Positions 6,954-9,956 of a DNA stretch of 64,000 nt are shown here, in pieces. The position numbers and the translations under genes are program-made. The notes under the pieces were generated by a model that had not been told where the DNA came from, ran no database searches, and was given only the letters and a program-made list of their open reading frames with translations. The DNA is from Capillimicrobium parvum (GTDB taxonomy: Bacteria > Actinomycetota > Thermoleophilia > Solirubrobacterales > Solirubrobacteraceae): contig NZ_CP087164.1 in NCBI RefSeq assembly GCF_021172045.1, positions 2,108,001-2,172,000 of the forward strand. Direction: 5' to 3'. Each line of letters opens with the position of its first letter. Within the stretch, counting starts at the first letter, position 1.

Positions 6954-8057
6954 ATGGCCCGAGAAGACGCATCGATGTTCTGGCCCGAGCACTTCAAGCT
7001 CGGCCTCTTCCCGCCCAACGTGTCGGGCGGCATGGTCTCGACGGCGGCCCCCGAGCGCTGGGAGGCGACGTGGGCCGACAACCTCGAGCTCGCCGTCGCC
7101 GCTGACGATGCGGGACTGGACTTCCTTCTCCCCGCGTCACGCTGGATCGGCTACGGCGGGCGCAACGGCTTTCAGAAGTCGGTGCTCGAGACCATGACCT
7201 GGGCCAGCGCGGTCCTGGCCCGCACCCGGCGCATCACGGTCTTCAGCACCGTCTACGCACCGCTGTTCCACCCCATCATGGCGGCGATGCAGATGGCGAC
7301 GGCCGACCAGGTCGGCGCGGGGCGGTTCGGCCTCAACCTCGTCTGCGGGTGGCGCCCCGACGAGTTCGCCATGTTCGGGATCGGGAGGGAGTGGCACGAC
7401 AGCCGCTACGACCGGGCGGCCGAGTGGATCGAGCTCGTCCGACGGCTCTGGTCCTCGGAGGAGCCCTTCGACTTCGACGGCGAGTACTACGTCGCCAAGG
7501 GAGCGCAGGGGCACCCGAAGCCGTACGGCGGCACCCAGCCGCTCGTGATGAACGCCGGCTACTCGCCCGCCGGACGCCGGTTCGCGGCACGGCACGTCGA
7601 CTTCCTGTTCACCAACGTGTTCGAGCTCGACGAGCGCTCGGTCCAGGAGCTGCGGGACTTCCGCGCGCTCGCTGCCGACAGCGGCCGGCCCGACACGTCG
7701 GTGTGCGTGACGCTGACGATCGTCAGCCGGGAGACCCGCGCTGAGGCGGAGGAGTACGTGCACCACTACGCGGTCGAGCACGCCGACTGGGAGGCCGTGG
7801 ACATCCTCACCGAGCGCATGGGCGTGATGGTGCCCGAGGGCCGCGAGGAGGCATGGCGGCGGAACATGTCGGCGAGCTCGGGCCTGGGCCTGGTCGTCGG
7901 CAGCCACGACGAGGTGGCCGACCGGCTCGCCGCGTTCGCCGAGGCGGGCTACGCCGGGGCCGCGGTGGGGCTCGTCAACTACCTCGACGAGCTGCCGGTG
8001 CTGCGCGACGAGATCCTCCCGAGGCTCGAGGCCCGCGGGGTGCGCCGCGCGGCGTGA
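6954..8057 (+). CDS. LLM-class flavin-dependent monooxygenase, RutA-like
   Basis: The 367-residue protein belongs to the bacterial luciferase-like (TIM-barrel) flavin monooxygenases, which use FMNH2 supplied by a separate reductase. The order of motifs matches the RutA/SsuD branch: FKLGLFPPNVSGG at the N-terminus, FLLPASRWIGYGG, LARTRRITVFSTV, and the core motif VGAGRFGLNLVCGW followed by RYDRAAEWIELVRRLW. The C-terminal part has LGLVVGSHDEVADRLAAFAE. RutA opens the uracil ring and SsuD desulfonates alkanesulfonates; the true substrate here is unknown, as no other rut or ssu gene is nearby. ATG 6954 is followed by the expected N-terminus, while ATG 6975 would remove seven residues. It is convergent with the GntR-type regulator, twelve bases apart. 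Confidence 0.87.
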   Translation: MAREDASMFWPEHFKLGLFPPNVSGGMVSTAAPERWEATWADNLELAVAADDAGLDFLLPASRWIGYGGRNGFQKSVLETMTWASAVLARTRRITVFSTVYAPLFHPIMAAMQMATADQVGAGRFGLNLVCGWRPDEFAMFGIGREWHDSRYDRAAEWIELVRRLWSSEEPFDFDGEYYVAKGAQGHPKPYGGTQPLVMNAGYSPAGRRFAARHVDFLFTNVFELDERSVQELRDFRALAADSGRPDTSVCVTLTIVSRETRAEAEEYVHHYAVEHADWEAVDILTERMGVMVPEGREEAWRRNMSASSGLGLVVGSHDEVADRLAAFAEAGYAGAAVGLVNYLDELPVLRDEILPRLEARGVRRAA

Positions 8058-8069
8058 GACGCGGCCGGG

Positions 8070-9434
8070 TCAGCCGCGGATGCGGGCCGTGAGCAGCCGC
8101 TCGGCGAGCGGCGCGTCGTGTGCGGCACAGGCGGCGCGCAGCTCGTCGAGCGCACCCGTGTCGTCGTCGGCGGCGCCGGGACGATCCCGCCCCGCGTGCA
8201 GCTCCGCCCGCGTCCACACGGGGCGGATGACGGTCAGCAGACGTGGCGCGCCCGCGGCGCGATAGAGCGTGAAGTGCAGCTCCCGGCGCGCCGCGCGGGC
8301 GCGACGGGCATCGCCCGCGGCGACGGCCTCGGCATGACGCTGCACCCACCCGCGCGCCAGCGCGTCGTCGGCCGGCGTGAACGCGCGCGCCGCATGGCCG
8401 GCGACCACCGGCTCGAGCGCGAGCCGCGTGGTCACGAGGTCCGCGAGGTCCTCCGGGGACGGCTCGACCACGCGTGCGCCCCGGTTGGGGACGTGCTCGA
8501 CGACGCCGAGCGCCTCGAGCTCGCGCAGCGCCTCGCGCACGGGGAAGACGCCGGTCCCCAGGAGGTCCGCGAGGCGCTCCAGCCGCAGCGGCGCGCCGGG
8601 CTCGAGCTCGCCCGACAGGATGCGCTCGAGCAGCTCCGCGGCCGCCCAGTCGCGGTGCGACGCCGGGCCGGCCGACGTCCCGTGCGGCGCGGCTGCTCCG
8701 CCGGGCGCCGGGGACGCGTCGGGCGCCGGGGCCGCGCCGAGCGCCGGGGCCGCGTCGAGCAGGCGCTCGAAGAAGTCGACGAGGACGCCGAGGTGGCGGT
8801 CGAGCCGGCGAACCGCCTCGTCGGCATCGCGGGCGACACACGCGTCGAGCACCTCGCGGTGGCCGCTGTAGTCCACGTCGATGCCGGGATGGCCGACGAG
8901 GATGCGCGCCAGGTAATGCTCCATGCACTCGTGCGTGACGTGCAGCGACCGCGAGAGCCACGGCGACTGCGCCGCCGCGTAGAGCCCCTCGTGGAACTCG
9001 GTCGTGACGGGGACGAGCGTGCGCAGCTCGCCGGCCCGGAGCGCGCGCTCCTGCTCCATCAGCGCGGTCTCGGCTCGGCGCGCGTCGGCCGGCGTGAACC
9101 GCTCGGCCGCCCGGCGGATGGCGAGCAGGCTCATCGAGCGGCGCGCCGCCGCGAGGGGCGCCAGCTCGGCCAGGCTCAGCTCGCTCACCCGCGCGCCCCG
9201 CTGCGAGACCCGCACGATGAGCCCCATCGCCTCCAGTTCCCGCAGCGCCTGGACGACGGTCGCCACGCTCGCGTGCTCCTCCCGGGCGATGTGCGCGACG
9301 AGGAGGCGCGAGCCCGGCGGCCGGTCGCCGAAGATGATGGCCTCCCGCAGGCGCGTCACCACCTGCCGGGTGGATCGGCGCCGGCGGCTGGGAGCGGACG
9401 TGCTGGCGATGCGGGCGAGAATACCGGCGCGCAC
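8070..9434 (-). CDS. Tandem GntR/FadR-type regulator (HTH-FCD-HTH-FCD fusion)
   Basis: The 454-residue protein is two complete GntR regulators in one chain. The first winged helix (about residues 17-80) has RQVVTRLREAIIFGDRPPGS and VATVVQALRELEAMGLIVRV, followed by an FCD ligand domain to about 210. A linker of Ala-Pro-rich hexapeptide repeats (about 220-245) leads to a second winged helix (LLERILSGELEPGAPLRLER, then FPVREALRELEALGVVEHV) and a second FCD domain ending LLTARIRG. Ordinary FadR-type regulators are about 230 residues and dimerise to present two HTHs. Here a monomer carries both, so it may act as a single-chain pseudo-dimer. The start at GTG 9434 is the best in-frame codon before the first HTH but lacks a clear ribosome site. 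It is divergent from the secreted protein gene and convergent with the monooxygenase; neither target is proven. Confidence 0.85.
   Translation of the reverse strand: MRAGILARIASTSAPSRRRRSTRQVVTRLREAIIFGDRPPGSRLLVAHIAREEHASVATVVQALRELEAMGLIVRVSQRGARVSELSLAELAPLAAARRSMSLLAIRRAAERFTPADARRAETALMEQERALRAGELRTLVPVTTEFHEGLYAAAQSPWLSRSLHVTHECMEHYLARILVGHPGIDVDYSGHREVLDACVARDADEAVRRLDRHLGVLVDFFERLLDAAPALGAAPAPDASPAPGGAAAPHGTSAGPASHRDWAAAELLERILSGELEPGAPLRLERLADLLGTGVFPVREALRELEALGVVEHVPNRGARVVEPSPEDLADLVTTRLALEPVVAGHAARAFTPADDALARGWVQRHAEAVAAGDARRARAARRELHFTLYRAAGAPRLLTVIRPVWTRAELHAGRDRPGAADDDTGALDELRAACAAHDAPLAERLLTARIRG
8705..8758. repeat. three 18-bp tandem repeats encoding the inter-domain linker
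   Basis: The unit begins GCGCCGGGG at 8705, 8723 and 8741, a period of exactly 18 bases. On the minus strand it encodes an Ala-Pro-rich hexapeptide repeat that joins the two GntR-FCD halves. Copy-number change here would alter linker length without breaking the frame. Confidence 0.7.
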
Positions 9435-9481
9435 CCCCGGCTCACGCGGGCCGCGGGCTCGACGCTGGAAGTGTCGGCGGG

Positions 9482-9510
9482 TTGACAGACGCGGCGCGGA
9501 CGTCGTTCGA
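9482..9510 (+). promoter_or_regulatory. candidate promoter of the small secreted protein gene
   Basis: A perfect -35 hexamer TTGACA at 9482-9487 lies 67 bases upstream of the start codon. The position 17 bases further holds GTTCGA, a poor -10 match, so the promoter is suggested mainly by the -35 box and its place in the divergent gap. Confidence 0.35.
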
Positions 9511-9554
9511 GGATGGGCCCATCCAGTCAACGGTCCTACGGGAGGACAACCGTC

Positions 9555-9956
9555 ATGTTCCGCCGTCACCTGCAGTCCGCCGCCACCGTCACCGCCATCG
9601 CCGCCGTCGCGCTCAGCGCCACGACCGGCATCGCCTCCGCCCGCGGCACGTCGTCGGCCAAGGCCCCCGGCGCCGCGGGCGTGAAGGGCGCGAAGCTCCA
9701 TCGCGGGATGGTCGGCGGAACCACGCTGCCCCCGCACATCTCCGTGGGGACGACGTCCGTCGCACTCGAGGCGTTCCCGGCCGGCGGCAAGGGAAGCGGC
9801 ACCGAGGAGGAGTGCGAGAAGTGGACCATCTGGCTGCGCGAGGACGCCGGGGCCATCGACGCCGCCACGACCACCGTCGACATCATCAACGCGTCCGACG
9901 AGCTCAAGGCCGACAAGGACGCGGCGATGGACGCCGGCTGCGCCGTCATCGACTAG
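9555..9956 (+). CDS. small secreted protein of unknown function
   Basis: The 133-residue protein starts with a clear Sec signal peptide: a basic MFRRH, a hydrophobic core TVTAIAAVALSATTG and a likely cleavage after IASA. The mature part of about 105 residues has a Gly/Lys/Ala-rich opening, then HISVGTTSVALEAFPAGG, and two cysteines (EEECEKW and DAGCAVID) that could form a disulphide. ATG 9555 was chosen because a strong ribosome site, GGAGG, lies nine bases before it. A frame extension to 9513 has neither a site nor a signal peptide at its start. I do not recognise the family. It stands alone between the divergent regulator and the glycan operon. Confidence 0.78.
   Translation: MFRRHLQSAATVTAIAAVALSATTGIASARGTSSAKAPGAAGVKGAKLHRGMVGGTTLPPHISVGTTSVALEAFPAGGKGSGTEEECEKWTIWLREDAGAIDAATTTVDIINASDELKADKDAAMDAGCAVID

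Follow-up and report, generated by a model that had tools for sequence, protein, structure and literature searches.

A single-chain double GntR/FCD regulator in Capillimicrobium parvum and a possible division of sensing and DNA reading between its unequal halves

Regulators of the GntR/FCD type form a very large bacterial group, and those that have been studied act as sets of identical chains. In known relatives Arg49 contacts a DNA phosphate. Domain databases list proteins of GntR-FCD-GntR-FCD architecture; we found no description of a tandem, double, duplicated or fused GntR regulator in the open-licence literature. Two VanR-type GntR proteins serve here as the main points of comparison. AlkR of Pseudomonas aeruginosa (PDB 9isw) is described as a single unit, which in solution is mainly a dimer of identical chains and needs R45 and R49 to bind DNA, this binding being greatly reduced in R45 or R49 mutants (PMC12042122). 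Atu1419 of Agrobacterium fabrum (PDB 6za3 and others), composed of an HTH and a six-helix FCD domain with a three-His site, is described as a tetramer of four separate chains, each with Arg45/Arg49 and a full metal site (PMC7797058). Its triple-His mutant is reported in the same source to fold, to remain tetrameric and still to bind its own promoters, and to be much less heat-stable (Tm 34 vs 52.6 C). That source also assigns a six-helix effector domain to the VanR group and a seven-helix one to the FadR group.

The protein analysed in this study (P0001) is encoded in a 64-kb window of the C. parvum genome (the window being the whole stretch of 64,000 nucleotides that was examined). Its frame begins with GTG and runs unbroken through 454 codons to a stop, and the coordinates, strand and frame given by an earlier, sequence-only reading of this DNA were confirmed (Table 1). 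Pfam recognised two GntR HTH and two FCD domains in the order GntR HTH-FCD-GntR HTH-FCD, the whole protein scoring well over both cut-offs, which bears out the claim of that reading that two full HTH-FCD units are joined in a single chain. Among the 32 FCD matches found in the 5.95-Mb genome two belong to this frame, each copy being matched separately (69.9 and 49.1 bits; cut-off 24.3). The order of HTH then FCD which defines the family is thus present twice, in contrast to the solved relatives with their one HTH-FCD unit per chain. With two units in one 454-residue chain, P0001 is therefore a variant of the GntR/FCD family and not an ordinary member.

Table 1. Features of the P0001 locus (window coordinates)
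Feature	Position	Strand	Basis or remark
Luciferase-like monooxygenase, convergent neighbour	6975..8057	+	Pfam PF00296
Single-chain double GntR/FCD regulator (P0001), 454 aa	8070..9434	-	Frame and Pfam
FCD domain, C half; first His (387) only, end shortened	8079..8441	-	Pfam PF07729, 49.1 bits, and alignment
GntR HTH, C half, residues 264-322	8469..8645	-	Pfam PF00392
Recognition helix, C half, GVFPVREAL, residues 295-303; Arg49 (Arg300) and Glu50 (Glu301) kept	8526..8552	-	Alignment
Linker repeat, three 18-bp copies coding APALGA/APAPDA/SPAPGG	8697..8750	-	Script measurement
FCD domain, N half; His148, His192 and His214 present (metal-type triad)	8790..9152	-	Pfam PF07729, 69.9 bits, and alignment
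GntR HTH, N half, residues 23-83	9186..9368	-	Pfam PF00392, 39.7 bits, N half alone
Recognition helix, N half, SVATVVQAL, residues 56-64; Arg49->Val, Glu50->Gln	9243..9269	-	Alignment
Candidate operator, perfect 14-bp palindrome GGATGGGCCCATCC	9511..9524	.	Once in the 5.95-Mb genome
Short protein, signal-peptide-like start (judged by eye), no Pfam family, divergent neighbour	9555..9956	+	

The possibility that the region 8070-9434 holds two genes, or one interrupted by a frameshift, which the sequence-only reading had named as a test of its claim, was ruled out. A single frame is present, no frameshift was seen, and in-frame ATG, GTG or TTG codons are entirely missing between residues 195 and 299, which leaves the C-half unit (its HTH starting at about residue 264) without a usual start codon of its own. 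Third-codon-position GC is 0.84-1.0 across the ten full 45-codon blocks of the gene. The opposite strand has a long open frame as well (8118-9485, +), which we attribute to high GC. As regards the neighbours, which like P0001 are local in distribution, the convergent monooxygenase gave no matches at E<=1e-120 in 145 other family genomes and has a 75% identical paralog in its own genome (2481717-2482790), in whose 4-kb locus no GntR-FCD match was detected. For the divergent small protein the same 145 genomes yielded two matches, both weak (E about 5e-4).

The two DNA-binding heads were compared, using the residue numbering of FadR/Atu1419 (taken from PMC4494728 and PMC7797058), with 74 single-unit relatives, obtained from 113 domain matches by removal of the window protein and near-duplicates. 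Position 49 is occupied by Arg in 70 of the 74 singles (His in three and Ala in one) and position 50 by Glu in 64; the C half conforms at both, and the N half carries Val and Gln, respectively. Position 45 separates nothing, since both halves have Val there and no more than 33/74 singles have Arg. The wing Arg-Gly is present in both halves, and the stretch from helix 2 to helix 3 has a net charge of +1 in each. Considering the loss of Arg49 together with the results for the AlkR R45/R49 mutants, the N half is plausibly a poor DNA binder; with Ser44 and the wing Arg-Gly kept, it could yet bind weakly. The view that the two units are equivalent and both working is weakly supported; the sequence-only reading had itself named a half without DNA-binding residues as evidence against its claim. 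Both units are indeed recognised, and the N recognition helix without Arg49 and Glu50 speaks against their equivalence: the N half has largely lost the residues in question (Val/Ala/Val at positions 45/46/49) and retains Ser44, the wing Arg-Gly and Arg31.

The effector domains differ in another respect. The metal-site histidines are strongly conserved in the singles (H141 in 73/74, H192 in 68/74 and H214 in 71/74); the N-half FCD contains all three, and the C-half FCD the first only. The C half ends three residues past the third His column, the end of its FCD being lost. His192 and His214 are both missing, as in the C half, from one of the 74 singles (L086), while L061, which was scored as lacking H192, carries a His three residues earlier. 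The fourth metal ligand is Asn, Asp or His in 71/74 singles, Thr in the N half and Arg in the C half. The promoter binding of the Atu1419 triple-His mutant indicates that a metal-free FCD can carry a working head, and by analogy the C half can plausibly still bind DNA without metal; the lowered Tm of the same mutant implies that it may then be unstable. A response to two ligands, as suggested in the sequence-only reading, is made less credible by a C-half FCD that lacks two of the three histidines and its terminal segment.

The same pattern was apparent in the ratio of HTH to FCD identity (mean identity to the 10 close singles of the group). This ratio is 1.18-1.40 among the singles themselves, 1.14 in the N half (barely outside their range) and 1.63 in the C half, which places the two halves on opposite sides. 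The ratios indicate a relatively greater loss in the DNA head of the N half (a small excess) and in the FCD of the C half.

The N half was modelled from an alignment of five rows (pLDDT 84.6); the model contained six FCD helices (residues 88-111, 115-133, 137-153, 158-181, 191-200 and 204-231), and its best structural matches were AlkR (Z 22.3, rmsd 2.7 over 207 residues, with the HTH-FCD order in common) and McbR (Z 21.4). Atu1419, which shares the three-His site of the N half, was matched at Z 16.8-17.5, and FadR at Z about 13 through the FCD only. Given the six helices of the model and the nearest solved structures, the N unit is of VanR type; of the label GntR/FadR given earlier, the GntR/FCD part is retained, and FadR proper does not suit the N unit. 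The single-sequence model of the whole chain was unusable (pLDDT 38.1).

An alignment of the two halves, 183 columns long, shows 35% identity (E 1e-15), in agreement with the earlier statement that they differ clearly. By BLAST identity neither half has the other as its nearest relative, since single-unit proteins from the same family or class come closer (up to 41% and 44%). A 76-row tree placed both halves in one 12-row group with single-unit relatives (SH-aLRT 88). The ten singles of this group (L016-L018, L020-L022, L024, L025, L061 and L088) share up to 44% identity with one half over the aligned part and differ from P0001 in having one unit per protein; Arg49 is present in 10/10, His192 in 9/10 (not L061) and His214 in 9/10 (L017 is cut short). 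When three distant single-unit proteins were aligned to the whole chain, all were placed on the C half, an outcome favoured by the separate C-half row. The free tree joined L061 to the N half and the L020 group to the C half, with supports of 91 and 83, and constraining the halves to be sisters gave a likelihood 6.71 above this quick free search (p-AU 0.621). The tree fits the halves as sisters without demonstrating it, and a duplication origin fits the sequences likewise; since both branches are long, the placement of the halves is unsure. A marked acceleration, considered because of the long end branches (1.42 and 1.38), was dropped, as the paths from the group's base show a small excess (1.68 for the N half and 1.56 for the C half, 0.64-1.53 for the ten singles).

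Other GntR-FCD genes of the same genome deserve mention in their own right. Two separate ones lie side by side on one strand (G000:C1 5698830-5700636, -), a possible starting arrangement for a fusion, and two others face each other on the plus and minus strands (459208-460682). At about 842287-843732 (-; locus L055, 790-2235) a 482-codon frame encodes GntR and FCD domains followed by a sensor stretch of Cache/PDC-like type, which passes the PF22673 cut-off (33.6 bits; cut-off 27) and stays under that of PF02743 (40.1; cut-off 45). Several in-frame ATG/GTG codons occur between its FCD and the sensor stretch, and a separate protein is possible; no description of a GntR-FCD-Cache combination was found in the open-licence literature.

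The three 18-bp repeats in the linker, reported by the sequence-only reading, are real. They were measured by script and are absent from the list of the direct-repeat tool. Their pairwise identities are 16/18, 14/18 and 14/18; third-position GC is 0.94 in the linker. When synonymous codons were redrawn for the same linker peptide, 0.21% of 20,000 sequences were equally repetitive, and none of 5,000 codon shuffles was as repetitive. The copies resemble each other at the DNA level beyond what the peptide demands.

The same reading had suggested that a fused pair could bind an asymmetric operator. No operator emerged from the 120-bp divergent region (9435-9554), which contains no palindrome clearly beyond chance; the candidate is the 14-bp palindrome at 9511-9524, which was equalled in 12% of simulated regions when spacers of 0-8 were allowed and in 1.45% at spacer 0 only (a post hoc choice). 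The motif TGTC-N8-GACA at 9472-9487 has a chance expectation of 0.60 in the window and a single near match in the rest of the genome. No promoter or terminator was found by scanning. An inverted repeat, GGTCCTACGGGAGGACA (window 9532-9548), closely precedes the divergent small gene and might form a leader hairpin.

The distribution of the doubled architecture was examined with the full protein (146 family genomes at E<=1e-25; 232 order genomes at E<=1e-30) and with a profile, A1, in which FCD precedes HTH, an unnatural order for which no end-to-end match to a single unit is expected. This profile was run on 396 phylum, 146 family and 299 class genomes (class at E<=1e-45; family matches listed to about E 2e-23), with the best 7-21 candidates per genome scored and many of the assemblies fragmented. 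These three genome sets overlap and include the genome of P0001; among the matches listed in them, no second GntR-FCD-GntR-FCD protein was found. A1 matched over positions 1-204 in the window protein alone, among the matches listed, and this match arises by construction, because the window protein is the first row of A1. Seven of the matches crossing the junction (two in G064, two in G010 and one each in G022, G083 and G049) were examined and have one unit each; the G064 match on contig 44 is cut by the contig end after the HTH. The other three genomes of the same genus yielded single units only, and no ortholog of P0001 was present among the matches listed in the 145 other family genomes, these three included.

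When 84,980 species genomes were scanned with a peptide pattern, which detects close relatives only, one relative was found, a single unit from Streptomyces. Among plasmids, none of 554 matching records covered 80% of P0001. A permuted bait was covered to 80% in 78/2,294 records, with a tool that joins pieces in any order; seven of these 78 regions were examined, and no doubled protein was seen among them (six are single genes of 227-261 aa and one is without annotation), and a second permuted bait gave 0/5. Viral contigs contained no close relatives, gave no hit with a degenerate DNA motif and encoded distant GntR proteins only. The doubled architecture may well exist outside Actinomycetota.

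The best reading of the sequence comparisons is that two joined copies of one subfamily have undergone complementary degeneration. We tentatively propose, with a confidence that falls just short of even, that P0001 is a doubled VanR-type GntR/FCD regulator in one chain, whose halves have lost opposite functions, leaving the N half as sensor and the C half as DNA reader. That it represents a natural single-chain pseudo-heterodimeric regulator, with one half only a sensor and the other only a DNA reader, is possible, and is put forward with somewhat less confidence. Alternatively, P0001 might be a redundant duplicate in slow decay, in which both halves lost conserved residues under relaxed constraint and little or no regulation is left. 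The modest excess in path length and the lack of an ortholog among the matches listed are in line with such decay, as is the finding, judged by eye from sequence starts, that P0001 is not beside the transport, oxidase/oxidation or fumarylacetoacetase-like genes among which several single-unit relatives sit. However, the 454 codons contain no stop or frameshift, codon-position GC resembles that of a working gene, each FCD stretch individually exceeds its cut-off, and the losses are complementary, not evenly spread. We consider decay doubtful but a live rival, no ortholog having been found by which selection on either loss could be judged.

The model of the sequence-only reading, namely a one-chain pseudo-dimer with two sensors and two working heads which binds an asymmetric operator and responds to two ligands, appears unlikely as a whole. 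Its single chain, two units and divergence have been upheld, both HTH and both FCD domains are recognised by Pfam, both wings keep Arg-Gly, and the divergence of the halves would suffice for different half-sites. Its two working heads and second ligand fit poorly with an N head devoid of Arg49 and Glu50 (AlkR R49 mutants being poor DNA binders according to PMC12042122) and with the missing histidines of the C-half FCD. It is very unlikely, in our view, that two different paralogs of one subfamily were fused, rather than one gene duplicated, to give a protein functioning as in the sensor/reader proposal: the free tree does separate the halves and neighbouring GntR-FCD genes exist in the genome (e.g. 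5698.8-5700.6 kb), but the likelihood is higher with the halves together.

If the proposed division into sensor and reader is correct, the N half would sense metal and a small ligand, and the C half would read DNA. Two chains would probably pair, so as to bring two C-half heads onto one symmetric operator, and the ligand state might pass from the N half via FCD-FCD contacts. The Ala-Pro linker would need only to be long and loose; these properties suit pairing of two chains as well as fold-back within one, and therefore do not decide between them.

A fused pair with unequal halves would make it possible to ask which half has to sense and which has to bind, a question that identical chains make difficult, and would be convenient for following the passage of a ligand signal between FCD domains. 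P0001 offers a testable case of division of labour, limited by the missing orthologs. If the proposal is true, it would mean that a symmetric bacterial transcription factor can divide two tasks between fused copies.
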